From IMG/VR virus record IMGVR_UViG_3300032240_001157, positions 1 to 31,142 of that record: a stretch of DNA of 31,142 nt. The stretch is one strand, 5' to 3'. The DNA is from a virus. A program made the translations under genes and the position numbers. Of this stretch, positions 1,263-25,758 are shown piece by piece. The notes beneath the pieces were generated by a model. It saw only the letters and a list, made by a program, of their open reading frames with translations, did no database searches and had not been told where the DNA came from. How positions within the stretch are numbered: position 1 is the stretch's first letter; every line of letters starts with the position of its first letter.

Positions 1263-1291
1263 TTGACAGTTTGGCGAAACGACAGTATAAT
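1263..1291 (+). promoter_or_regulatory. Consensus early promoter with ATG at +1
   Basis: TTGACA (1263-1268), 17 bp, TATAAT (1286-1291), a perfect consensus. Only six bases (TAACAC) separate the -10 box from the ATG at 1298, so transcription should begin at or next to the A of the start codon, giving a leaderless mRNA. Bases 1281-1299 are repeated exactly at 1608-1626 in the next promoter. Confidence 0.85.
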
Positions 1292-1297
1292 TAACAC

Positions 1298-1603
1298 ATG
1301 AACACAGCAAACACAATTCTTAAGTGGACCGCAACAGCGATCTTGATCCTAGGCACAGCAGTCAACGGCCTAGGCATGTATCCAGAAGGTCCTGCACTGT
1401 TGGTCTTAGGTGGCTTCATTTGGTTGATAGTCGCAGTAAGGATCAAAGACGCTCCCCTGATCGTTACCAACTTGGTAATGGCCACAGTGGGACTGGCCGC
1501 TATCCTTTACACTCTGAACAAAGAACCTGAGTTCGAAGTTCATCAGAGTGGCATTGATAGACAGATAGAATGTGAGAGACTTTTAGGTCTTGACAAAGAA
1601 TGA
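1298..1603 (+). CDS. Small three-helix membrane protein, SemiSWEET-like pattern
   Basis: A 101-residue protein with three hydrophobic segments at about residues 9-26, 31-47 and 53-70, then a charged tail (EFEVHQSGIDRQIECERL). The stretch GGFIWLIVAVRIKDAPLIV followed by TNLV and ILYTL resembles the second and third helices of small three-helix MtN3/SemiSWEET proteins (W, then K/R-D-x-P-L-I, then N), but the usual PQ motif is absent, so this is only a weak fold suggestion. No Shine-Dalgarno precedes the ATG, which lies six bases after a consensus -10 box, so translation is probably leaderless. Likely an early inner-membrane protein. Confidence 0.75.
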   Translation: MNTANTILKWTATAILILGTAVNGLGMYPEGPALLVLGGFIWLIVAVRIKDAPLIVTNLVMATVGLAAILYTLNKEPEFEVHQSGIDRQIECERLLGLDKE

Positions 1604-1618
1604 TTTTGACAGTATAAT
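1590..1618 (+). promoter_or_regulatory. Consensus early promoter
   Basis: TTGACA (1590-1595), 17 bp, TATAAT (1613-1618), with the -35 inside the 3' end of the preceding gene. It shares the 19-bp block 1608-1626 with 1281-1299, but here the leader is about 26 bases and carries AGGAG at 1640-1644. Confidence 0.88.
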
Positions 1619-1650
1619 TAACACATACACAAACACACTAGGAGCTAGAT

Positions 1651-1842
1651 ATGACACTACATCAAAAGGCATTGTTCTGCTTGTATACAGGTTTAATCTT
1701 GTTGTTGGGCACACTAGGCGGCGTTGAACAATGCCCAGACCTTGCTACCTACGATGGCGTATACTTGGGCACATTCGCCCTAGTAGGCATTGCACTTATG
1801 GCCTTGGGTGCCAGCTATGCTAACGAGGCTGTAAGCCAATGA
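1651..1842 (+). CDS. Small two-helix membrane protein
   Basis: A 63-residue protein with two hydrophobic segments, about residues 8-24 (ALFCLYTGLILLLGTLGG) and 38-55 (LGTFALVGIALMALGAS). AGGAG lies six bases before the ATG and a consensus promoter lies at 1590-1618. No family recognised. It overlaps the next gene in ATGA form, so the two are translationally coupled. A small phage membrane protein of the early region; possible roles such as envelope modification or superinfection exclusion are guesses. Confidence 0.75.
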   Translation: MTLHQKALFCLYTGLILLLGTLGGVEQCPDLATYDGVYLGTFALVGIALMALGASYANEAVSQ

Positions 1843-3945: not shown

Positions 3946-4629
3946 ATGTTTTACACCGAATCAGTTGCTTATCGTTCAGCAGATCAAATCAATAGTGCCA
4001 TGGGTCGTGTCTACGGCCATATGAGTCTAGCAGTTTTGGTTTCAATGATAGTCAGCTACTTTGTGGGCACCAGCCCAGAATTGCTACAGTTCTTCTTTAC
4101 AGGTGTGACTAAATGGATTGTGATCTTTGCACCATTGGTGGCCATATTTGCCTTGGCCTTTGCCGCTGACAACTTTAACAAGAGTCAACTACAGCTATTC
4201 TTGCATGGCTTTGCCGCTCTAATGGGTCTGAGCATGGCCACAATCTTTGCTGTGTTTACCATGGGGTCGATTGTTAGTGCGTTCATGGGAGCAGCCATAC
4301 TGTTTGGCACAATGAGCTTTTATGGTTACTTTACCAAACGCAGTCTAGAAAGCCTAGGCCAGTTTATGATGATTGGCCTGATTGCCATCTGCATTGCGTC
4401 AATTGTCAACATCTTTATTGGCAGCACTGTGATGCAGACTGTGATTTCAGCATTGGCCATTATCATCTTCTTGGGCCTAACTGCCTATGACACACAGCAG
4501 ATTCGTGAAATGGTTTCAGTGGGTGAAGATACTGGTAGAGAAGAAGTTCTAGGTGCTTTGACCTTGTACATGGACTTTATCAATCTGTTCATTAACCTAC
4601 TACAGTTGTTTGGCATAAAGAAAGACTGA
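3946..4629 (+). CDS. Bax inhibitor-1 / YccA-YbhL family membrane protein
   Basis: A 227-residue integral membrane protein of the BI-1 (TMBIM) family, close to the normal length of bacterial members (about 220-235). A short soluble start (MFYTESVAYRSADQINSAMG) is followed by about seven hydrophobic segments between residues 25 and 225. Family hallmarks are the late motif GLTAYDTQQIREM and the C-terminal segment LGALTLYMDFINLFINLL. The two Asp residues (YDTQQ and LYMDF) match the conserved pair proposed to control a pH-dependent calcium leak in bacterial relatives. Bacterial YccA modulates the FtsH protease; a phage copy could protect phage or host membrane proteins, which is inference. It has its own promoter and a good ribosome site, and is coupled to a 43-residue gene. 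Confidence 0.92.
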   Translation: MFYTESVAYRSADQINSAMGRVYGHMSLAVLVSMIVSYFVGTSPELLQFFFTGVTKWIVIFAPLVAIFALAFAADNFNKSQLQLFLHGFAALMGLSMATIFAVFTMGSIVSAFMGAAILFGTMSFYGYFTKRSLESLGQFMMIGLIAICIASIVNIFIGSTVMQTVISALAIIIFLGLTAYDTQQIREMVSVGEDTGREEVLGALTLYMDFINLFINLLQLFGIKKD

Positions 4630-6206: not shown

Positions 6207-6443
6207 TTATTTAGCCCACATTAAGTGGTAATGCGTCAAAGTTTGTTCATGGTAAAACTCTGCTACTAGTCGGCAATACATATCGTTACGCTCTAGAATT
6301 ACCTGGCAAATTTCATGCGGTTGTTTAAGTAACCACTGTAAATGATCGCTGCCTATGGTTTTATGCACCTTGGGCCAATCTATTTCTATTGTTTCGCCTT
6401 CATCAGGAAGCCATTTTAACAATTCTACTTTATTCGTCTTCAT
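6207..6443 (-). CDS. Small phage protein downstream of helicase, unknown
   Basis: A 78-residue protein, MKTNKVELLKWLPDEGETIE to HYHLMWAK. It overlaps the end of the helicase gene by 14 bases and is therefore translated from the helicase transcript. It is soluble, with a helical segment (SDHLQWLLKQPHEICQVILE) and a C-terminal beta-like part rich in His and Tyr. No family recognised. Its stop contains the start of a late-type box for the next gene. Confidence 0.7.
   Translation of the reverse strand: MKTNKVELLKWLPDEGETIEIDWPKVHKTIGSDHLQWLLKQPHEICQVILERNDMYCRLVAEFYHEQTLTHYHLMWAK
6208..6214 (-). promoter_or_regulatory. T4 late-type box CTAAATA on the minus strand
   Basis: CTAAATA (6214 down to 6208) lies four bases before the ATG at 6203 and overlaps the stop of the gene at 6207-6443. 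No ribosome site is present. It is consistent with a late promoter for the MRAKEFI genes. Confidence 0.5.
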
Positions 6444-7869
6444 CGTGCATCTTGTTTAACAACTCCAACAATTTGCTGGATTCTACATTAGCACGTACTT
6501 TGCCAATGCTAGCCCCCTGTGTGGGATCATCGTGGATAACTCCGTCTGCATCTATCTGTGCCTTGACCGTTGTCCTGTTCTTAATGCTTTCAATGATGCT
6601 GCTAGATCCACGGCTAGTAGCACCGTTTGAATCTTGTTCGTCTTCGGGTAAATCGCTGATCTTTAGGCTTTCTATATTAAACTCTAGATCAACTTTCATA
6701 CCAACACCGCTTGAACTACGAGTTTTCATTAGTTGTATTTGATAACGACCTCGCTCACGCATTGCTCTAGAAGTAAAGATACCAAACACATTGTCAGCAG
6801 TTTGAATCTTGCTTAGTCCACCTGAAATGTGACTGTGATCAAACTCTACTTCTTCTACTGCACCACGATTCAACTGTGCCGCAGTTACCAACAGAATCTT
6901 CTTCTCCATTGCTAGATTACGCAGTTCTTCTGATACATATTTGTCTTTGACAAACAGATTTTCTGCTGAAATCTTTTTACCAATGGGCATTAACAAGTCT
7001 AGATAATCCACTAGTAATACATCTACTTTCTTGCCTACTTTGATTTCATATTCTTTGATGTAAGCACGAATATCATTGACTGTCTTGCCCGACGGCATAT
7101 ACTTGATCTGCAACATACCGGCTTTCTTGCCAATCATCTTGACTTTCATTTCAACATCATCAAGATCTTTAAAAATCTCTTTAGTACCAACTCCTGTTAC
7201 CATACTGTCAATACGCATAGATACAAGTGCTTCACTAAGTTCTAAGGTTAGATACACAACATTAAGACCCATTAATGCCCAGTTAACACCTAGGTTAGCC
7301 AAGAACAAACTCTTACCTGCACCCGATCCACCTGCAAAGATATTCAACTCTCCACGATTCATTCCGCCAAACAATTTGCGATCCAGTCCCGGCCATCCAG
7401 TACTAATCTGTCCGTTTTTGTCTTTGAGTCCCATTAGTCGAGCCCTAGGATCAGCAAAATAATCTGTACCCATATCTCGAGCAAGACCAATTTGTACTGC
7501 TTCTTTAATCAGTGTTTCAACTTCACCGTAGTTCTTCTTTTCTAATAGATCCGCCGAGGCAATGATTGCACGTTCAATGGCCTTGTGTCTAGTAAAACTT
7601 TCAAACTCGTCCATGAGCCAATCTAGATGACCTTCTTTTAGGTCTTCTGGTCGTTTCATGTCTGTTCTACAGTTGGCATTAACCATTTCATAGTCTGGCA
7701 ATACACTATATTGTTTGGCATATTCGTTAATGAATTCTGCGGCATCCTGTAGTTTGCGATCAAACAAGGTGTGATCAAAAATACCTTGACAGCGTACAAA
7801 TACTTCAGCATCTGCAAGCATCAATTCAAGATATAATTTCTGTACTTCAATTCCGTAATCTTTTATCAT
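6430..7869 (-). CDS. 41: Replicative DNA helicase, T4 gp41 / DnaB family
   Basis: A 479-residue hexameric helicase, similar in length to T4 gp41 (475). The Walker A motif GGSGAGKS lies at about residues 180-187 after GGMNRGELNIFAG, and Walker B is VDVLLVDYLDLL at 282-293. A conserved H-x-S-G-G-x-x-K-like stretch (HISGGLSKIQTADNVFGIF) and an arginine-finger region (MRERGRYQIQLMKTRSS) follow. The N-terminal 130 residues form the helical domain that meets primase. It unwinds DNA 5' to 3' on the lagging strand and pairs with the primase gene directly upstream. The ATG lies six bases after a -10 box with no Shine-Dalgarno, so leaderless translation is likely, possibly besides read-through from primase. 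Confidence 0.97.
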   Translation of the reverse strand: MIKDYGIEVQKLYLELMLADAEVFVRCQGIFDHTLFDRKLQDAAEFINEYAKQYSVLPDYEMVNANCRTDMKRPEDLKEGHLDWLMDEFESFTRHKAIERAIIASADLLEKKNYGEVETLIKEAVQIGLARDMGTDYFADPRARLMGLKDKNGQISTGWPGLDRKLFGGMNRGELNIFAGGSGAGKSLFLANLGVNWALMGLNVVYLTLELSEALVSMRIDSMVTGVGTKEIFKDLDDVEMKVKMIGKKAGMLQIKYMPSGKTVNDIRAYIKEYEIKVGKKVDVLLVDYLDLLMPIGKKISAENLFVKDKYVSEELRNLAMEKKILLVTAAQLNRGAVEEVEFDHSHISGGLSKIQTADNVFGIFTSRAMRERGRYQIQLMKTRSSSGVGMKVDLEFNIESLKISDLPEDEQDSNGATSRGSSSIIESIKNRTTVKAQIDADGVIHDDPTQGASIGKVRANVESSKLLELLNKMHDEDE

Positions 7870-7875
7870 AGTTAT

Positions 7876-7904
7876 ATTATATTATCTTTCTTCATGTAAT
7901 GCAA
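7876..7904 (-). promoter_or_regulatory. Promoter with helicase ATG at +1
   Basis: On the minus strand TTGCAT (7904-7899), 17 bp, TATAAT (7881-7876), then six bases (ATAACT) and the helicase ATG. The -35 lies in the last codons of primase. No Shine-Dalgarno lies within reach of the ATG. Confidence 0.7.
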
Positions 7905-8895
7905 GGCGGGTTTCGAGATTGTTTCTTGCCACGCTGATTTTGATTTCGCCTCGTTGCGCTGTTTTAATAGCATCTACTATAACAAACAACTTGCCATATC
8001 TCTGTACTGCATCTGCACAGTCTTTGACATCATCTTCCCAGTTAGGAAATGCCACAGCCCAATCATAGTCTATGGCCTGTTTGATCAACATCAATCCAGC
8101 CTTATCTTGATCAGGGATAACAATGACTTCTTTGCCCAATTGATTAATGATGTGTGCCTGTTGCTGTGCTACTTCATTGGTCAGTAATCCAACCCCATCG
8201 ACGGCTAATGCATCAAACTGACCTTCACAGACAAATACATACTTGCTCAAGGGATCCTGTGCATCAATATTATACACAAAGAAAGGATGTTGATCTGATA
8301 GATATTTAGGCTTGCCGTTGGTAATCTTACGTGCCGTATTACCTACAATTTTACCTTCATAGTAATAGGGTAGTAGTACACGATCAATGTAGCCAGGTGC
8401 AGGGCTCCAAAAGAAATTTTTACTCAGAGCATCAAATCCTCGACCGTAAACATAATCTATCACTGGACCAATGTCTGCAGATATATCCGGGAGGTATGTG
8501 GAATTTACCCACTCATTGATAGACATTGCACCTTCAGGTAAATCTTTTTCTGTGAACTTGACCTTTTCAACAAAATGTTCGGCTTCATAGTCTGTTGATT
8601 CTGTTTTAAGTGCTTCAAATACTAATTCTTTGATCTGATCATCGTTAGCACCTAACCAGCGACAGAGACTCTTAAACTTCTCAGATATATTACGCCCAGG
8701 TTGCCAACTGGCTGTGTATTTGCAGTTAAAACAGTTGTAGACAACTCCTTCGCTGAACATAACACCTGCTCGTTTTCGAGTGTCTCTAGCATGTCCTCTA
8801 TGATGACAACAGGGTGCATTGAAACTGATCCAGCCGCTTGGGCTAGACTTTGTCTTTGGAAGCATTGAACGAAATTTGTCTAAGACGAGAGTCAT
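7882..8895 (-). CDS. 61: DNA primase, T4 gp61 type
   Basis: A 337-residue DnaG-like primase, close to T4 gp61 (342). An N-terminal zinc-binding region (residues about 28-62) holds APCCHHRGH and YNCFNCKYTASW. The TOPRIM catalytic core has the invariant Glu in VCEGQFDALAVDG (about 222-234) and the DxD-like PDQDKAG (261-267). It makes the short RNA primers for the lagging strand and works with the gp41 helicase immediately downstream. A strong TTGACA/TATACT promoter ends six bases before the ATG, with no ribosome site, suggesting a leaderless early message. The stop overlaps the helicase promoter spacer. Confidence 0.96.
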   Translation of the reverse strand: MTLVLDKFRSMLPKTKSSPSGWISFNAPCCHHRGHARDTRKRAGVMFSEGVVYNCFNCKYTASWQPGRNISEKFKSLCRWLGANDDQIKELVFEALKTESTDYEAEHFVEKVKFTEKDLPEGAMSINEWVNSTYLPDISADIGPVIDYVYGRGFDALSKNFFWSPAPGYIDRVLLPYYYEGKIVGNTARKITNGKPKYLSDQHPFFVYNIDAQDPLSKYVFVCEGQFDALAVDGVGLLTNEVAQQQAHIINQLGKEVIVIPDQDKAGLMLIKQAIDYDWAVAFPNWEDDVKDCADAVQRYGKLFVIVDAIKTAQRGEIKISVARNNLETRLALHEER

Positions 8896-8901
8896 AGACT
8901 T

Positions 8902-8930
8902 AGTATACTATCTGTATAGTATTTTGTCAA
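8902..8930 (-). promoter_or_regulatory. Primase promoter with ATG at +1
   Basis: Minus strand: TTGACA (8930-8925), 17 bp, TATACT (8907-8902), then AAGTCT and the ATG at 8895. The -35 and spacer overlap the last codons of the upstream structural gene. A perfect inverted repeat (ATACTAT/ATAGTAT, 8905-8922) fills most of the spacer and overlaps the -10 box. Confidence 0.85.
8905..8922. promoter_or_regulatory. Operator-like palindrome in the primase promoter
   Basis: ATACTAT (8905-8911), CTGT, ATAGTAT (8916-8922): seven-base perfect arms, four-base spacer, covering the inner spacer and the upstream part of the -10 box. A dimeric repressor binding here would block the promoter. It may also be chance in AT-rich sequence. 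Confidence 0.45.
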
Positions 8931-9729
8931 CGGTTCCAGGGTTGGTTATGAGCTTATTGGGTGTATGCTTTACTCTAAACCAATTGTATTTTCCAACAAC
9001 GTTTTTAAATTCTACAGTAGAACTAGACAGTGTTAGAGTCTCTAAATCTACCCAAGTTTTTGGTGTAGCACCTTCGGCTATGCTGCCTTGTATCTTTACT
9101 ACACCACTGTAATTGGTACTGCATATTTGAAATGTATGTAGACTCTGCGGAGTACTAATCTGCGGATTAGCATCTATAATACCGCTGGCATAATAGCTGT
9201 CAAATGGCTCTCCGAATGACTTATGAAATGCAAATTCTCTAATCACAGTACTAGGTTGAACATCACCTTGACCGGATTCTAATACTTCTAGGGTAGCGAT
9301 TGTGTCGTATTGTGCATCTATGTATACAGGTGTTCTAGAACTAACAATGTGTGTGCCATCGCCGTTGTCTGTTCTTGATTCTTTGTAGATGCTGTATTGA
9401 TAAAAACCTGTTTCGATATCTATCATTTCGCTTTCTGTTAGAGTTACATAGAACTTGCCTTTGGTTGCATCAACAGCTACACAATCTTTCTTAGCCACTA
9501 ATGTCTGGGTCTCACGCTCAACCAAATTAAATACCAATGTTGAACCTGCGGCATTTGCAGCCTTTTCATCAGAGTTGCGTACCTGAATGTCTATACGATT
9601 GTCTACTCCGCGATATATTTTAATGTTGCGATTATACACTCTACGATACCTCTCTGTTAGCCAGGCCGAATCTGCGTTGGTGAAAACATCTATTTTATTT
9701 TGGTATAAATAAACGGAAATTAATTGCAT
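8908..9729 (-). CDS. Probable virion structural protein, T4-like marine phage type
   Basis: A 273-residue protein beginning MQLISVYLYQNKIDVFTNAD. The N-terminal 130 residues are beta-rich (KIYRGVDNRIDIQVRNSD, then STLVFNLVERETQTLV) and end in a domain with YVTLTESEMIDIETGFYQYS, a pattern that resembles phage baseplate or tail proteins of the BppU N-terminal type. The C-terminal part (residues about 190-273) reads like a jelly-roll that ends GKYNWFRVKHTPN and DKILYR. I recall close relatives in T4-like cyanophages annotated as structural or hypothetical. A minus-strand GATAAATA late box and an AAAGGG ribosome site precede it, supporting late expression. Confidence 0.72.
   Translation of the reverse strand: MQLISVYLYQNKIDVFTNADSAWLTERYRRVYNRNIKIYRGVDNRIDIQVRNSDEKAANAAGSTLVFNLVERETQTLVAKKDCVAVDATKGKFYVTLTESEMIDIETGFYQYSIYKESRTDNGDGTHIVSSRTPVYIDAQYDTIATLEVLESGQGDVQPSTVIREFAFHKSFGEPFDSYYASGIIDANPQISTPQSLHTFQICSTNYSGVVKIQGSIAEGATPKTWVDLETLTLSSSTVEFKNVVGKYNWFRVKHTPNKLITNPGTVDKILYR
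9704..9711 (+). promoter_or_regulatory. Perfect T4 late promoter box TATAAATA
   Basis: TATAAATA is an exact match to the T4 late consensus. It lies inside the minus-strand structural gene and points toward the lone plus-strand gene at 9759, giving a leader of about 40 bases. Confidence 0.65.
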
Positions 9730-14851: not shown

Positions 14852-15195
14852 TTAAAACCTTTGTCTCTTTCAACATTCCAAGCGATAGCTGTTTGTAGTC
14901 CACCAGGCTTAGGATCATTAACTACAATACGTTCGCCTAGAGGAAGATCAAATATTGCATGATTGTATCGAAGGCCGTTGTCTTTTAAAATCTTTAGACT
15001 TGATTCTTTGTATTCGTCTGACCTACCTGTGGTAATTATAATACAATCACCTGCAGGTATTGAGTCCCAGAATTCTTTCACTCCAGGTAACAATTCATCA
15101 TTGTTAGTTAGATAACCGTTGTGTTTTAGTATTGTTCCGTCGAGATCAATAAACCAAGTATGTCCAAGGTTTTCAGAAAGACTAAAAGGTATCAT
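14848..15195 (-). CDS. HAD-superfamily phosphatase
   Basis: A compact 115-residue HAD-like protein. Motif I is WFIDLDGTILKHNG (D-x-D-G-T, residues about 14-27), motif II is IIITTGRSDEYKE (Thr/Ser after a strand) and motif III-IV is the region IVVNDPKPGGLQTA. It lacks a large cap domain, as do small sugar-phosphate phosphatases. It sits between the nucleotidyltransferase-kinase fusion and FkbM genes with ATGA overlaps, so its substrate is probably a phosphosugar or phospho-alcohol used to make the activated building block. The precise substrate cannot be read. Confidence 0.85.
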   Translation of the reverse strand: MIPFSLSENLGHTWFIDLDGTILKHNGYLTNNDELLPGVKEFWDSIPAGDCIIITTGRSDEYKESSLKILKDNGLRYNHAIFDLPLGERIVVNDPKPGGLQTAIAWNVERDKGFK

Positions 15196-16703
15196 GCGTT
15201 GTTCGATCCTTGTTCTAGATAATACAGTCCTAGATAGAAACTGCCAATAACACTGTCAATATCATCTTTGGCATAGCCACTAAGTGCTAACCAAATAAGG
15301 CCATGTAAGATTTTTATCTTGTAAAGATCTTTGCCAAAGTAGTCTGTAAATATTTCTTCGCCTGCGCTGGCAAACAATGAATCTTCCATTAGTATCTCAA
15401 CAGTTTCGCTGTCTACATGAAGTTTAAATTTTTTACGATTAAACGCATCGTAACCGCCAATAGCACTGTAATATACTTTAGCAAAGTCATACATAGGATC
15501 GCCCCAGATACCCGGCTTGGCAAAATAACCTCTTGGATCAATGAACCAGGTACGTAAATTTTTATCTACTAGACTGTTACTGAATGTAGGATCTCCATGT
15601 ATTGGTGTAAAGAAACTAGGATTAAGTTCATTGAAGAGTTTGTCCCAAATACCGTCAACGGTAAAAATATTTCTGCATTTTACACCATTGATAGTAAAAG
15701 ATTTTTGATCGTAACCAGGTATGATTGCAGATACACTTTCTACACGTTGTATTGTTTTATTGATATAAGTTTCTTTAACATCGTCATAACTTCCGCCTTG
15801 AACTCCAAGGTCATGTAGGTTAGTTAACGAGTCAAGATAATCAGCCAATACCGCACGTTTTTCACGTTCAGTTAAGTCTGTCATTTGGTAGGCGTGTTGA
15901 CCTTTTACACGTTCCATAACATAAGGCTCAGTGGAAATTATTTTAGGTATACGTCTAAACCCTAGATCACGAACACTCTTATACCAATCTTGTTCTTTGC
16001 CAATAAGATGACTATAGTTAGGATCGATGGCACGTTTTTCTACAGTATTTTCTAATATCTTAACTTCATTAAAAAATCTACTGAACCCTGCACGATCATT
16101 TTGAGTTTCGATAGTTGCAAAATCTCCTAGTTCTTCTAGGTCGTTGCATAACACAGTTTCAAAGACAGGAACATTGCGACTAAACCATTTAACAAATTCT
16201 CCGCTGGCAGGAGGTTCTGGAAAATGTTCGGCTCTTTTTACATAAAAAATTCCAGGTATTCCATTCGGTCCAGGTTGCTCGTGCAGCTTGCCATCTTCGC
16301 CTTGTGTCCATCTACAGGTAAAGGCATTAGAAATGAATACCAAAGGAACATTTCCTTTAACTTCAATTTCAGGCATAGTTCCTATAATTAAATCACTCCA
16401 AGTAATCATTAATTCAGCATCACTAGGTACTGCTTTAAGAGCTTGCGAAATTCCACTGCATGTACCTTTTTCGTTGGTCTGTGTTAGCGTGAATTCAACA
16501 CCTGGAGGATTTACCTGTAGATACTTTTCTAATTGATCAAAGGCATAGTCACCTATGATATGAAAGTGTGCTGTGGGAAATTTTTCAAATAAGTGATAGA
16601 GCAATGGCTTACCGCGAACACTAACCAAACATTTTGGTTTATTCCATGTGTGGTGTCTTAGCCTACTGCCACGGCCACCTGCTTGTACAATAATGTGCAT
16701 CAT
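15192..16703 (-). CDS. Fusion of sugar/choline-type nucleotidyltransferase and APH/choline-kinase-like domain
   Basis: A 503-residue two-domain protein. Residues 1-200 form a nucleotidyltransferase: VQAGGRGSRLR (about 6-16), KPKCLV (22-27), and WSDLI (101-105) giving the metal-binding Asp. Residues about 210-500 form an aminoglycoside-phosphotransferase or choline-kinase-like domain: IHGDPTFSN (367-375, H-G-D-x-x-x-x-N) and WFIDPRG (385-391, D-P-R-G), then GDPMYDFAKVY. Paired kinase and cytidylyltransferase steps make CDP-choline in the LicA/LicC pathway, and similar pairs activate sugars for capsules. Here both steps are in one chain, next to a HAD phosphatase. A product such as a nucleotide-activated sugar or alcohol is likely; which one is unknown. 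Confidence 0.85.
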   Translation of the reverse strand: MMHIIVQAGGRGSRLRHHTWNKPKCLVSVRGKPLLYHLFEKFPTAHFHIIGDYAFDQLEKYLQVNPPGVEFTLTQTNEKGTCSGISQALKAVPSDAELMITWSDLIIGTMPEIEVKGNVPLVFISNAFTCRWTQGEDGKLHEQPGPNGIPGIFYVKRAEHFPEPPASGEFVKWFSRNVPVFETVLCNDLEELGDFATIETQNDRAGFSRFFNEVKILENTVEKRAIDPNYSHLIGKEQDWYKSVRDLGFRRIPKIISTEPYVMERVKGQHAYQMTDLTEREKRAVLADYLDSLTNLHDLGVQGGSYDDVKETYINKTIQRVESVSAIIPGYDQKSFTINGVKCRNIFTVDGIWDKLFNELNPSFFTPIHGDPTFSNSLVDKNLRTWFIDPRGYFAKPGIWGDPMYDFAKVYYSAIGGYDAFNRKKFKLHVDSETVEILMEDSLFASAGEEIFTDYFGKDLYKIKILHGLIWLALSGYAKDDIDSVIGSFYLGLYYLEQGSNNA

Positions 16704-19723: not shown

Positions 19724-21174
19724 ATAGTGACCTTTGTGACTGCGAACGGATATTTCGCTTCCTTATAATATTTCTTCCTCTCAGTGAGATGGCGCTTGGC
19801 GTACTTGCAGGCAGATGTGATATCCCAGATCTCAACGTGGTCCTTGTCTTCGGCTTTTCGAATACCCCGGCCAATGCTTTGTATAACTCGAACAAAGCTC
19901 TTTCCGGGCTCAATAAGAACCAGATTAAAAATACGGGGGATATTAATACCCACAGCGGCCACACCATAAGTCGCCACAATAATCTTGCCATCACTAGTTT
20001 TAATTTCGTCATACTCTTCTTTTCTTTCTGTAAGTTTCATACCTCCGCTGACAAACACAGCTTCAGGAATTAATTCAATTAATTTATTTCCTGTGTCAAT
20101 TCTATTGATTAACACTAAGGTATTTCCAGTAAGACTAAAATCTTTTATCTTACCAGCGATCCATTTTAGTCTAGTTGGATCAGTTACCAAAAAGCTGTAC
20201 TCGTCTTGAAAACTGCGGAATACTTGAACATCAGTTGTTTGAAGAATATTAATGTTAAGTTGTGCTAATACATCTTTCTGTTGTAGATCATGTGCAGTTA
20301 CTTGATTAATAACAGGACCAATGCTGGCAAGAATGCCTTGAAATTCCCAAGCTTCTTTAGGTATGGTTCCGGTTAATCCCCAACGTATTGCACAATGATT
20401 AAAGTTTTGCGTAAGGAGTTTTGTCAATACTTCGGCCTTGGCCTGATGTACTTCGTCGACAATAATTGCGGCAACACCTTCACAGAATTCCGCTAAAGAT
20501 AGTGTGGCATCATCGTGGCTTTTCTTGTCTAGGATATTAAGACTCTGCCATGTACATATAGTGTGTGTACGGTTTAATTCTTTTCTATCGCCAAAGTATA
20601 CACCAACATCAAGTCCTAGGTTCTTGTAATCTTCTTCAGTTTGCACCACCAGCGACTTGTTAGGAACAATGACCATAGTGCGGCCAAACGGCTCACAAAG
20701 ATGGCTAAGTGTAGCAGTGGTAATTGTTTTGCCTGCGCCTGTTGCTACTTCCTGTAATGCCTGTGGAGTTTCTAAAAACTTGTTAACAACGTCATACTGA
20801 TAGTCACGTAAAATAATAGGTTTTCCTGCTTCGGGATGACCTTTGGGCCATGTCTTGCCTTTGTCTGCCCAGTAGTTTTCTGTGACTGCTGTAAATTCTA
20901 ACTTGCTATGAACACGTAGATCTTCTATCTCAATTTCATAACCGCTGTCTTCTATGATAGGCAATATAACATCTAAATGTGCAAGATATCCTGTACCACC
21001 GATACCAAAATAAGTTTTAGTACCATCCCAGCGGCCTAATTTATATGCAGGCATGTGTCGTGCGTAAGGCAAGTCAAACTTTAATTTGTTGACAATTTTA
21101 CGTCTTGTTTCTACAGCAAGACCTTCAATCTTAATGTTGACTTCATCTCTAATAATGAGCTTACAACTCGACAA
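19720..21174 (-). CDS. uvsW: UvsW-type DNA/RNA helicase
   Basis: A 484-residue superfamily 2 helicase, near the length of T4 UvsW (about 500). Motif Q/I region is LRDYQYDVV with VATGAGKT at about 143-150, motif II is VDEVHQ (239-244), motif III is LTGT (267-270), and the second RecA-like domain ends in SIGRGIRKAED (motif VI). The first 90 residues are a small DNA-binding domain. UvsW unwinds branched recombination and replication-fork structures and R-loops, and drives the switch from origin-dependent to recombination-dependent replication in T4. It begins 14 bases inside the preceding conserved gene. Confidence 0.96.
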   Translation of the reverse strand: MSSCKLIIRDEVNIKIEGLAVETRRKIVNKLKFDLPYARHMPAYKLGRWDGTKTYFGIGGTGYLAHLDVILPIIEDSGYEIEIEDLRVHSKLEFTAVTENYWADKGKTWPKGHPEAGKPIILRDYQYDVVNKFLETPQALQEVATGAGKTITTATLSHLCEPFGRTMVIVPNKSLVVQTEEDYKNLGLDVGVYFGDRKELNRTHTICTWQSLNILDKKSHDDATLSLAEFCEGVAAIIVDEVHQAKAEVLTKLLTQNFNHCAIRWGLTGTIPKEAWEFQGILASIGPVINQVTAHDLQQKDVLAQLNINILQTTDVQVFRSFQDEYSFLVTDPTRLKWIAGKIKDFSLTGNTLVLINRIDTGNKLIELIPEAVFVSGGMKLTERKEEYDEIKTSDGKIIVATYGVAAVGINIPRIFNLVLIEPGKSFVRVIQSIGRGIRKAEDKDHVEIWDITSACKYAKRHLTERKKYYKEAKYPFAVTKVTI

Positions 21175-22351
21175 TTTTCTTTTCCTTAACGTGTGATGCT
21201 TTGATGTCTCCTACGAAACATACGCAGGTATGTGTATCCATCCAAGCCTGTGTTGTAGTACTTGGCACTGGATATAAACTATTTGTTAGTATTATTTTAA
21301 CATCTATGTTCTCAGAAAACAACCACTTAGGCGGTTTATTTTGAAATATAAAAATCTTGCCGCCTTCGACTTTCCCACCATAGCCACTGTCTTTGACCCA
21401 TTGATTAAATCCTCGATCCTCGTCTTTGTCTAGTCTAAAACAAACACGGATTTCTGTGGTATCCATCTGATTTCGTTCGGCTTCTATACAAAACTCTTTA
21501 ACCCAGGACTGCGAAGCATCGCCCTTGTTTAAAATAACAGCAACAACGCCGTTGACAGACTTCTGTATTTCAAAAAACTGATTTAAACTTTTTAACCAAA
21601 ACTGCGTGGCAGTAGAACCGGCAATCTTTTCTACCAAATTTTCTGGGGTTTCTTTAAGAGGATATCCCATGGCCTTGGCTGTTAACAAATCATGGCCTTG
21701 TTCACAGGTTCTGTGTTCTTCCCACCACTGAACTACCTCTTCACTGGCATTACATAGGTCTACTGTGGTACCAAAGTGCTTGACACAGTAGGGAGCAATT
21801 TCATCCTCATTTTGCCAGATTTCTTCAACCTCGCCTAGGGCAATCATGAATGTGTCGTCAATGTCAAAATTATGTCTAGTGGCGAATTCAAATATTTCAA
21901 TGAGATTGAAATTATAAAATTTCAGTCGACGAATTTTTTTGTCAGCGTCCCACATGCTGGAACTGTAGTCTTTAGTGACCGGTGAAATTTCCTTCTCAAA
22001 CACCTCTTTTAAGGCAAACGGAAACTTGACACAGATCCACATTTCCCCTAGCTCATCTTTTTCAACAAAAATTTTCTTAGTAAGATCCAGCAACCTAAAA
22101 TCAGTTCTCCACTCGGGATTAACTAGTGCATCTTCAAAATCAAGTCCTGCCATTTTTGCATAGAGCTTGTATTTTTGAAGGATTTTTATGAGAAAATTTG
22201 CCTGATTTTTAGTCAGCTGGCCAGCAGTTGATATTACAACATAGAAACTGTTGGCAGCTGATTGATCCTGGTGCTGGAGTTCGATATTTTTATTATCGCA
22301 TAGGTCCATGAACTCAAGAAACAGATCTTCGACATATCGTGATTTTAGCAT
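21161..22351 (-). CDS. Conserved T4-like marine phage protein upstream of uvsW
   Basis: A 396-residue protein, MLKSRYVEDLFLEFMDLCDN onward. It has TAGQLTKNQANFLIKILQKY, WICVKFPFALKEVF, a middle part with EEVVQWWEEHRTC and a C-terminal alpha/beta part (GGKVEGGKIFIFQNKPPKW, then IILTNSLYPVPSTT and CVCFVGD). I recall close relatives next to uvsW in T4-like cyanophages, without a function. No Walker motif or nuclease motif is clear; the C-terminal half could be a degenerate helicase-like or Rossmann domain. The ATG lies six bases after a TATACT box with no ribosome site, so it probably heads a leaderless early mRNA that includes uvsW. Confidence 0.82.
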   Translation of the reverse strand: MLKSRYVEDLFLEFMDLCDNKNIELQHQDQSAANSFYVVISTAGQLTKNQANFLIKILQKYKLYAKMAGLDFEDALVNPEWRTDFRLLDLTKKIFVEKDELGEMWICVKFPFALKEVFEKEISPVTKDYSSSMWDADKKIRRLKFYNFNLIEIFEFATRHNFDIDDTFMIALGEVEEIWQNEDEIAPYCVKHFGTTVDLCNASEEVVQWWEEHRTCEQGHDLLTAKAMGYPLKETPENLVEKIAGSTATQFWLKSLNQFFEIQKSVNGVVAVILNKGDASQSWVKEFCIEAERNQMDTTEIRVCFRLDKDEDRGFNQWVKDSGYGGKVEGGKIFIFQNKPPKWLFSENIDVKIILTNSLYPVPSTTTQAWMDTHTCVCFVGDIKASHVKEKKIVEL

Positions 22352-22357
22352 CTATAT

Positions 22358-22386
22358 AGTATAGCACCTAAAAAAGTGAAAATCAA
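22358..22386 (-). promoter_or_regulatory. Promoter of the UvsW module, ATG at +1
   Basis: Minus strand: TTGATT (22386-22381), 17 bp, TATACT (22363-22358) preceded by TGC, then ATATAG and the ATG at 22351. The -35 overlaps the stop of the upstream gene. A weak AT hairpin (AAAATC/GATTTT) followed by a T-run overlaps it and could end the upstream transcript. Confidence 0.78.
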
Positions 22387-25098: not shown

Positions 25099-25758
25099 AT
25101 GAAAGAGTCACACGGCTTCTGGTTTCCAGATTACGACGATCATTTTCCAAAGATGCTCAACAAGAGTATGTTAAAAGATGGAGTTGCAAGATATCAATAC
25201 AGAGCAAGAGATGCCGCAGTTGCAGCCTGCGATCAAAAAAGAGTCTGTATAGATATTGGTGCAAACGTGGGACTATGGGCTTGCGATCTTGTTAAATCTT
25301 TTGAATATGTCATTGCTTTTGAACCAGTCAGTGAGTTTATTGAATGTTTTAAAAAGAATGTTCCTGGATCAAATTATACAATGCATCAAATGGCATTAGG
25401 TAGGGCCGAAAGTTTCATTGAGATGAATATTGTTCAAGGAAATACTGGACATACACATATTGATCAAAAATCAATAGGTAAAGGTACTATTCCACTAAAG
25501 ACTTTAGACAGTTTTAACCTAACAAATGTTGACATGATTAAAATTGATGTCGAAGGATTTGAAGGAGAGATTCTTGCAGGTGCATTAAAGACTATAGAGA
25601 TGAATAAACCTGTATTAGTTATAGAACAACAGAAACACGAATATCAAAACGACATGCAAGAAACTCCGGCGATCAAAATACTAGAAGGCTGGGGCTATCG
25701 TGTAGTTGAACAGTTTAACAAAGACTGGGTCTTAAAATACCAAGGCGCTCCCGCATAA
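25099..25758 (+). CDS. FkbM-family methyltransferase (copy 2)
   Basis: A 219-residue protein, MKESHGFWFPDYDDHFPKML, with the classical FkbM set: VCIDIGANVGLWACDLVK (motif I), YVIAFEPVSEFIECFKKN (F-E-P), VDMIKIDVEGFEGEILAGA (D-V-E-G-x-E) and KPVLVIEQQ. A SAM-dependent O-methyltransferase for sugars, more canonical than copy 1 at 14195-14851. AAGGA lies before the ATG. Its last 44 bases overlap the convergent gene 25715-26629, so both coding ends share sequence. Confidence 0.9.
   Translation: MKESHGFWFPDYDDHFPKMLNKSMLKDGVARYQYRARDAAVAACDQKRVCIDIGANVGLWACDLVKSFEYVIAFEPVSEFIECFKKNVPGSNYTMHQMALGRAESFIEMNIVQGNTGHTHIDQKSIGKGTIPLKTLDSFNLTNVDMIKIDVEGFEGEILAGALKTIEMNKPVLVIEQQKHEYQNDMQETPAIKILEGWGYRVVEQFNKDWVLKYQGAPA

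Follow-up and report, generated by a model that had tools for sequence, protein, structure and literature searches.

Sequence comparison across our window, the 31-kb linear virus record analyzed here in its entirety, and its relatives indicated that a set of phage genes, including the replicative primase, is very probably driven by host-sigma70-type promoters that are fused directly to start codons and would yield leaderless mRNAs. Leaderless use is strongly supported by these comparisons and is by far the best reading of the layout. In the mechanism that we propose, RNA polymerase would initiate at the A of the ATG (or the G of a GTG), seven bases past the -10 box, and the resulting message would be translated via recognition of its 5′-terminal start codon, without a Shine-Dalgarno (SD) sequence. 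We infer the 5′ end and the leaderless translation from sigma70 start-site geometry together with 70S binding by a 5′-terminal AUG, which is able to bind 70S ribosomes (PMC9031893).

Promoter and start codon layout in the window

The minus strand of the window carries T4-type replication genes (UvsX-like recombinase, DNA helicase, primase, and DnaB-like helicase in Pfam and PHROG), and small genes with strong promoters cluster on the plus strand. Among cultured phages, the nearest relatives are the Pseudomonas jumbo phages PA5oct and Paride, followed at a greater distance by Atu_ph07, Phosso, and the GAP32/CBB group; the best cultured matches to this 31-kb fragment are below 60% identity. A host scan of a genome collection returned matches only in a few MAG contigs from various phyla. 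The features considered below are as follows.

8908..9729, minus strand: upstream gene (BppU_N-like/virion structural), with weak phrog_14467 and BppU_N matches
8925..8930, minus strand: primase -35 box TTGACA, within the V-D-K codons that end the upstream structural-type gene
8902..8907, minus strand: primase -10 box TATACT, immediately 3′ of the TAG stop of the upstream gene
8896..8901, minus strand: six-base gap AAGTCT between the -10 box and the primase ATG; predicted transcript start at 8895
7882..8895, minus strand: DNA primase (T4 gp61/DnaG-type), 337 aa, predicted leaderless (phrog_47, E = 3.5e-32)
7876..7904, minus strand: helicase promoter TTGCAT-17-TATAAT with a weak -35 box, in the primase end and the 12-nt gap
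6430..7869, minus strand: DnaB-like replicative helicase (T4 gp41-type), predicted leaderless or nearly so (phrog_19, E = 1.9e-69; DnaB_C)
1263..1291, plus strand: promoter of the 1298 gene, TTGACA-17-TATAAT, followed by TAACAC and ATG (12/12 consensus)
1298..1603, plus strand: small DUF6552 protein, 101 aa, predicted leaderless (Pfam PF20189, E = 5.3e-7)
1590..1651, plus strand: leadered sister promoter TTGACA-17-TATAAT-TAACAC-ATA, with AGGAG before the ATG at 1651
22358..22386, minus strand: promoter of the 22351 gene, TTGATT-17-TATACT, with an extended -10 (TGC) and the TGA stop of the upstream gene inside the -35 box
21161..22351, minus strand: 396-aa protein, predicted leaderless or with a 1-2 nt leader

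The first-pass annotation had placed the end of a -10 box exactly six bases before the ATGs at 8895, 7869, 1298, and 22351 and had noted no SD at the first two, while assigning normal ribosome sites to the genes at 254, 600, 1002, 1651, and 3946. The spacing was found at all four ATGs, none of the four has an SD, and AGGAG-type SDs are present at the five other genes. The description of sigma70-type promoters with a 17-bp spacer stood for the primase (TTGACA-17-TATACT-AAGTCT-ATG, 11/12 consensus), but the -35 box of the helicase is weak. The idea that the replication machinery is made from leaderless messages would likewise apply to the primase and, less firmly, to the helicase, but not every member of the set is a replication gene, and the early timing assigned to these genes is conjectural.

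The primase provides the clearest pattern. Among 54 distinct primase upstream regions, mostly from relatives with 45-91% protein identity, a TANNNT box ends six bases before the ATG in every case, and TTGACA is located at 17 bp in 53 (the sole exception is TTGACT at 16 bp). The gap itself occurs in 29 sequence versions, always six bases long, and base -1 of the ATG is a pyrimidine (T or C) in 54/54. The -35 box lies inside the coding end of the upstream gene in most relatives, as it does at the 3′ end of gene 8908..9729 in the window. The Asp codon overlapping it is GAC in 44/44, compared with 208/705 (30%) in the body of the gene, and the third base of the preceding codon is T in 44/44 versus 38% in the gene body; third positions flanking the box vary. 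These codon counts indicate that the upstream gene preserves the primase -35 through its silent positions. Depending on the lineage, the stop of that gene lies either 5′ of the -10 box or inside it, and the promoter and gene boundary are packed into as few as 12 non-coding bases. From codon 2 onward, the primase evolves as a coding sequence, with silent third-position variation and codons 2-10 conserved as protein, and translation therefore begins at this ATG.

The message made from the primase's own promoter would carry a 5′-terminal AUG and be translated, whereas in read-through messages of the structural gene the same AUG would be internal, lack an SD, and be poorly translated. Since an AUG without an SD should be weak when it lies inside a long message, the layout may also uncouple the primase from upstream structural-gene read-through, a benefit that we propose tentatively. 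It would amount to a regulatory idea in which a start codon works only from its own promoter.

The other three genes differ in strength. The SD-less ATG at 1298 has orthologs with the same six-base distance in 5/5 cases, including those in contigs G003 and G015; the 1298 protein had no matches in IMG/VR or cultured phages, and its orthologs turned up only within the fetched genomes. The 22351 promoter (ATATAG gap, no SD) scores 9/12, and its six-base distance is retained in 10/10 IMG/VR relatives and in the larger contigs G001, G003, G015, and G019, with identity of the 396-aa protein down to 33%; this protein has no Pfam or PHROG match. The helicase is the weaker case: its TTGCAT box (7904-7899) matches the -35 consensus at only 3/6 positions, ahead of TATAAT (7881-7876), ATAACT, and an SD-less ATG at 7869, and the promoter is absent from the consensus-scan listing of the window. 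A near -10 box was found 3-8 bases before the start in 44/69 distinct helicase upstream regions, with an SD in 0/44, compared with 6/25 upstream regions lacking a near -10 box; the distance in relatives varies from five to eight bases.

Distance statistics and the predicted transcript start

The distance d was taken as the number of bases between the end of the -10 box and the start codon. In the pooled distance scan, strong promoters were those with at least 11/12 consensus, and an ATG was counted when it opened an open reading frame (ORF) of at least 40 codons. Within the window, promoters of this strength have ATG-led ORFs at d = 0-15 only at d = 6 (n = 2). When the window was pooled with four relatives, d = 6 reached 27 against a background of ~2.5 per distance (Poisson p ~4e-19), with seven at d = 5, one at d = 7, and then almost none until a second hump at ~25-33 bases. 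Eight held-out relatives, fetched only once the hypothesis was set, gave 24 at d = 6 versus ~2.1 expected (p ~2e-17), with the peak in 8/8, no more than four at each remaining distance under 16, and the second hump repeated. A comparison of promoter-to-start distances with shuffled controls, suggested in the first-pass annotation, returned the same peak: counting any ATG in the held-out relatives, 30 real sites stood against ~1.3 in dinucleotide shuffles. The strong sigma70-type promoters of 13 related genomes or contigs are bimodal, lying at d = 6 or at ~25-33 bases with an SD, with almost nothing between. The reversed-pattern control had no d = 6 peak. In an exact-match search of 26 contigs, 48 perfect promoters had an ATG 4-8 bases on, versus one in the reversed control, and 39 of the 48 were at exactly d = 6. 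An SD was absent at all 49 sites with d = 5-7; a clear SD is also missing at about half of all called genes, and SD absence alone therefore proves little.

The bases around the predicted start agree with this spacing. A pyrimidine precedes the ATG at 31/35 sites with d = 6 and at 38/39 perfect promoters, versus 194/424 SD-led starts. In 91 leadered sister promoters, in which position 7 is free of start-codon constraint, base 6 after the -10 box is C or T, base 7 is A, base 8 is T, and base 9 is A, and an SD follows downstream in 78/92. The C before ATA at these sisters matches the pyrimidine before ATG at the predicted leaderless genes; this match puts transcript initiation at the A of the ATG. 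The initially transcribed bases would be A-U-A in leadered genes, followed by an SD leader, and A-U-G in leaderless genes. The simplest reading of these alignments would be a single promoter family starting at a pyrimidine-A step at base 7, in which a leaderless gene arises when AUA becomes AUG. The promoters of the 1651 and 1298 genes have identical -10 boxes and six following bases and differ in ATA (1651) versus ATG (1298). The leaderless mRNAs put forward in the first-pass annotation are accordingly favored by four lines of comparison, namely the fixed distance over a drifting gap, coding from codon 2, the pyrimidine-A step in the sister promoters, and the distant relatives, all of which would fit a transcript beginning at the start codon.

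The layout at d = 5-7 recurs in orthologs of the helicase, 396-aa, DUF6552, exonuclease, QueE-like, HAD-like, SbcD-like, DnaJ-like, and 112-aa families, the exonuclease, QueE-like, HAD-like, SbcD-like, DnaJ-like, and 112-aa families having it in two or three genomes each.

Alternative explanations

Very short leaders, in which transcription starts a few bases upstream and the fixed distance reflects only promoter geometry and gene compaction, are an unlikely general explanation. Start-site selection can move by 1-2 bases. The spread of d = 5-8 at the helicase and the purines at -1 and -2 in the 396-aa family are in line with such leaders, and because base -1 is a purine in all 396-aa orthologs, a leader of 1-2 nt is possible at 22351; leaders of one or two bases are possible for the helicase and 396-aa families alike. 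For most genes, however, the exact peak at six and the pyrimidine-A step at the ATG, which is common to the unconstrained leadered promoters, put the start on the A.

Stop-start coupling, in which the promoters are real but ribosomes ending the upstream gene reinitiate at the SD-less ATG on a polycistronic mRNA, is less probable still. The primase and helicase ATGs lie 12 nt past the upstream stop, where coupling could contribute, and several other sites lie 31 nt past a TGA embedded in the -35 box. This TGA within TTGA(CA) occurs at window 22351 and at G003:56689, G015:109421, G003:158290, G015:195635, and G019:292210; the spacing between the upstream gene end and the following ATG is therefore exactly 31 nt at each of these sites. 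Coupling nevertheless needs neither a promoter at a fixed distance nor a pyrimidine-A initiator, and at least six sites lack any codirectional ORF of 60 aa or more that ends within 200 nt upstream. It is unlikely at 1298 because the upstream gene ends 65 nt before the ATG, and in PA5oct the stop is shifted relative to the start while d = 6 is retained.

We consider it very improbable that the true starts are generally internal, SD-led codons and that the ATG at +1 is incidental. Such starts do hold for some early small genes: an in-frame SD-led internal start is found at 7/49 candidate sites, which may therefore be leadered, and four families have AGGAG and an in-frame start within 14 codons. 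The MLTKER, SRES, 376-aa, and 48-aa genes were dropped from the leaderless candidates on account of in-frame internal SD starts. No such start is present in the primase, helicase, DUF6552, 396-aa, or SbcD-like genes, and the protein-level conservation of primase codons 2-10 also stands against this explanation. At G015:70549, G015:71528, G015:73595, and G001:46921, an ATG at +1 is followed 7-9 codons later by an SD-led ATG in the same frame; small genes of this kind may possibly be two-start genes (short/long protein) or evolutionary intermediates.

Chance matches in AT-rich DNA have a negligible probability: promoter-like sites at 9/12 are abundant in the genome, near the shuffled expectation, but the peak reaches p ~1e-17 or lower in two independent sets, the reversed control is flat, and the layout is conserved in 54 relatives, so that distance peak and conservation rule out a chance origin for the primase, DUF6552, and 396-aa families.

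Cultured relatives, known systems, and possible physiology

PA5oct and Paride (Arenbergviridae, Wroclawvirus) have the same promoter-start fusion at the primase, with 37% identity to the window in the primase and 53% in the helicase. These T4-related jumbo phages share the order structural gene-primase-helicase with homologous primase and helicase, and the syntenic upstream gene of PA5oct is structural by MS detection. The primase of both phages reads TTGACA-17-TATAAT-GTGCGC-GTG; its promoter lies entirely 3′ of the stop of the preceding gene, and here too six bases separate the -10 box from the start. Unlike in the window, this start is a GTG, and the helicase start region differs. In PA5oct the genome-wide d = 6 peak is missing, indicating that a leaderless gene set is not a general trait of the family. 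The peak is also missing in T4, S-PM2, and GAP32. A GTG at distance six recurs in a second primase subclade (L143-L158). In E. coli, GTG serves poorly as a leaderless start, and its use in PA5oct and one primase subclade counts against the leaderless reading. The annotated primase start is the GTG right after the -10 box in PA5oct (NC_071039.1, 145884) and lies ~100 nt downstream in Paride (OR805295.1, 17280). Both are probably wrong, with promoter and alignment favoring the GTG six bases past the -10 box, and the layout would thus correct the primase start annotation of the two phages. Our literature search found no paper on PA5oct transcript starts.

To our knowledge, phage leaderless mRNAs are known mainly as single cases, such as lambda cI. 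Our genes resemble lambda cI (PRM) and the bacterial TA-led genes (Zheng et al. 2011, PMC3160421) in having a -10 box ~12 bp before the start, no SD, and an mRNA expected to begin at the AUG; TANNNT ~12 bp upstream, the lack of an SD, and translation from that start, as judged by conservation, were all found here. In contrast to those cases, the layout involves at least 10 conserved genes, primase and helicase among them, and it occurs in lytic-type jumbo phages that elsewhere rely on strong SDs; the strict six-base distance persists across deep divergence. Leaderless genes are thus already known, but a conserved leaderless replication set in a jumbo-phage lineage looks new, and no report of leaderless transcripts in jumbo or T4-like phages was found in the open-access literature.

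T4 early and middle promoters provide host sigma70 -10 boxes for replication genes, and in the middle promoters a MotA box at about -30 replaces the -35 hexamer. The window likewise has sigma70 -10 boxes at replication genes, but the primase has a TTGACA -35 in place of a MotA box, and the T4 helicase, unlike ours, has an AGGAG leader. A T4 middle (MotA) promoter was rejected on account of TTGACA at 17 bp in 53/54, and a T4 late promoter, with a TATAAATA -10 box and no -35, on account of the hexamers TATACT/TATAAT with TTGACA. The jumbo phages phiKZ and AR9 also have start sites near motifs, such as the phiKZ late TATG motif (PMC5312081), but their promoters belong to phage polymerases and AR9 leaders span 26-491 nt.

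The proposal of the first-pass annotation that the layout could withstand or take advantage of altered host initiation is speculation. One version, which we consider unlikely, is a physiological switch in which replication genes would be translated when SD-dependent initiation of the host drops, for instance during starvation or dormancy at high (p)ppGpp, perhaps with ribosomes carrying phage bS21. Leaderless translation is reportedly activated by (p)ppGpp (PMC9031893), and replication of Paride in dormant P. aeruginosa depends on the capacity to make (p)ppGpp (PMC10761892). Genes for bS21 were found in three of 20 related records scanned (G015:15466-15624, G019:292290-292445, and PA5oct 170985-171143); in G015 and G019, the gene immediately downstream of bS21 is an exonuclease gene predicted to be leaderless. 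The bS21-encoding PA5oct is a close relative of Paride. Genes for IF3 and S1-domain proteins, as signs of altered initiation, were absent from the 20 records. A conserved leaderless set that includes the replicative primase, with exact spacing in a globally distributed lineage, would be a natural model for Gram-negative leaderless initiation, and the prediction is testable in the cultured Pseudomonas phages Paride or PA5oct on PAO1.

Several other features of the window were recorded. The gene at 3946-4629, which has its own SD, encodes a BI-1/Bax inhibitor-1 family membrane protein (Pfam PF01027, E = 1e-52) and is an unusual phage cargo. The gene at 15192-16703 (phrog_4098) fuses a MobA-like nucleotidyltransferase domain with an APH-type phosphotransferase domain, and an FkbM-type methyltransferase gene lies at 25099-25758. 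At 2220-2310, amid small ORFs, a G-rich tract (ggtggggtggtggggtgg) is located directly 5′ of a TATAAT-like element.
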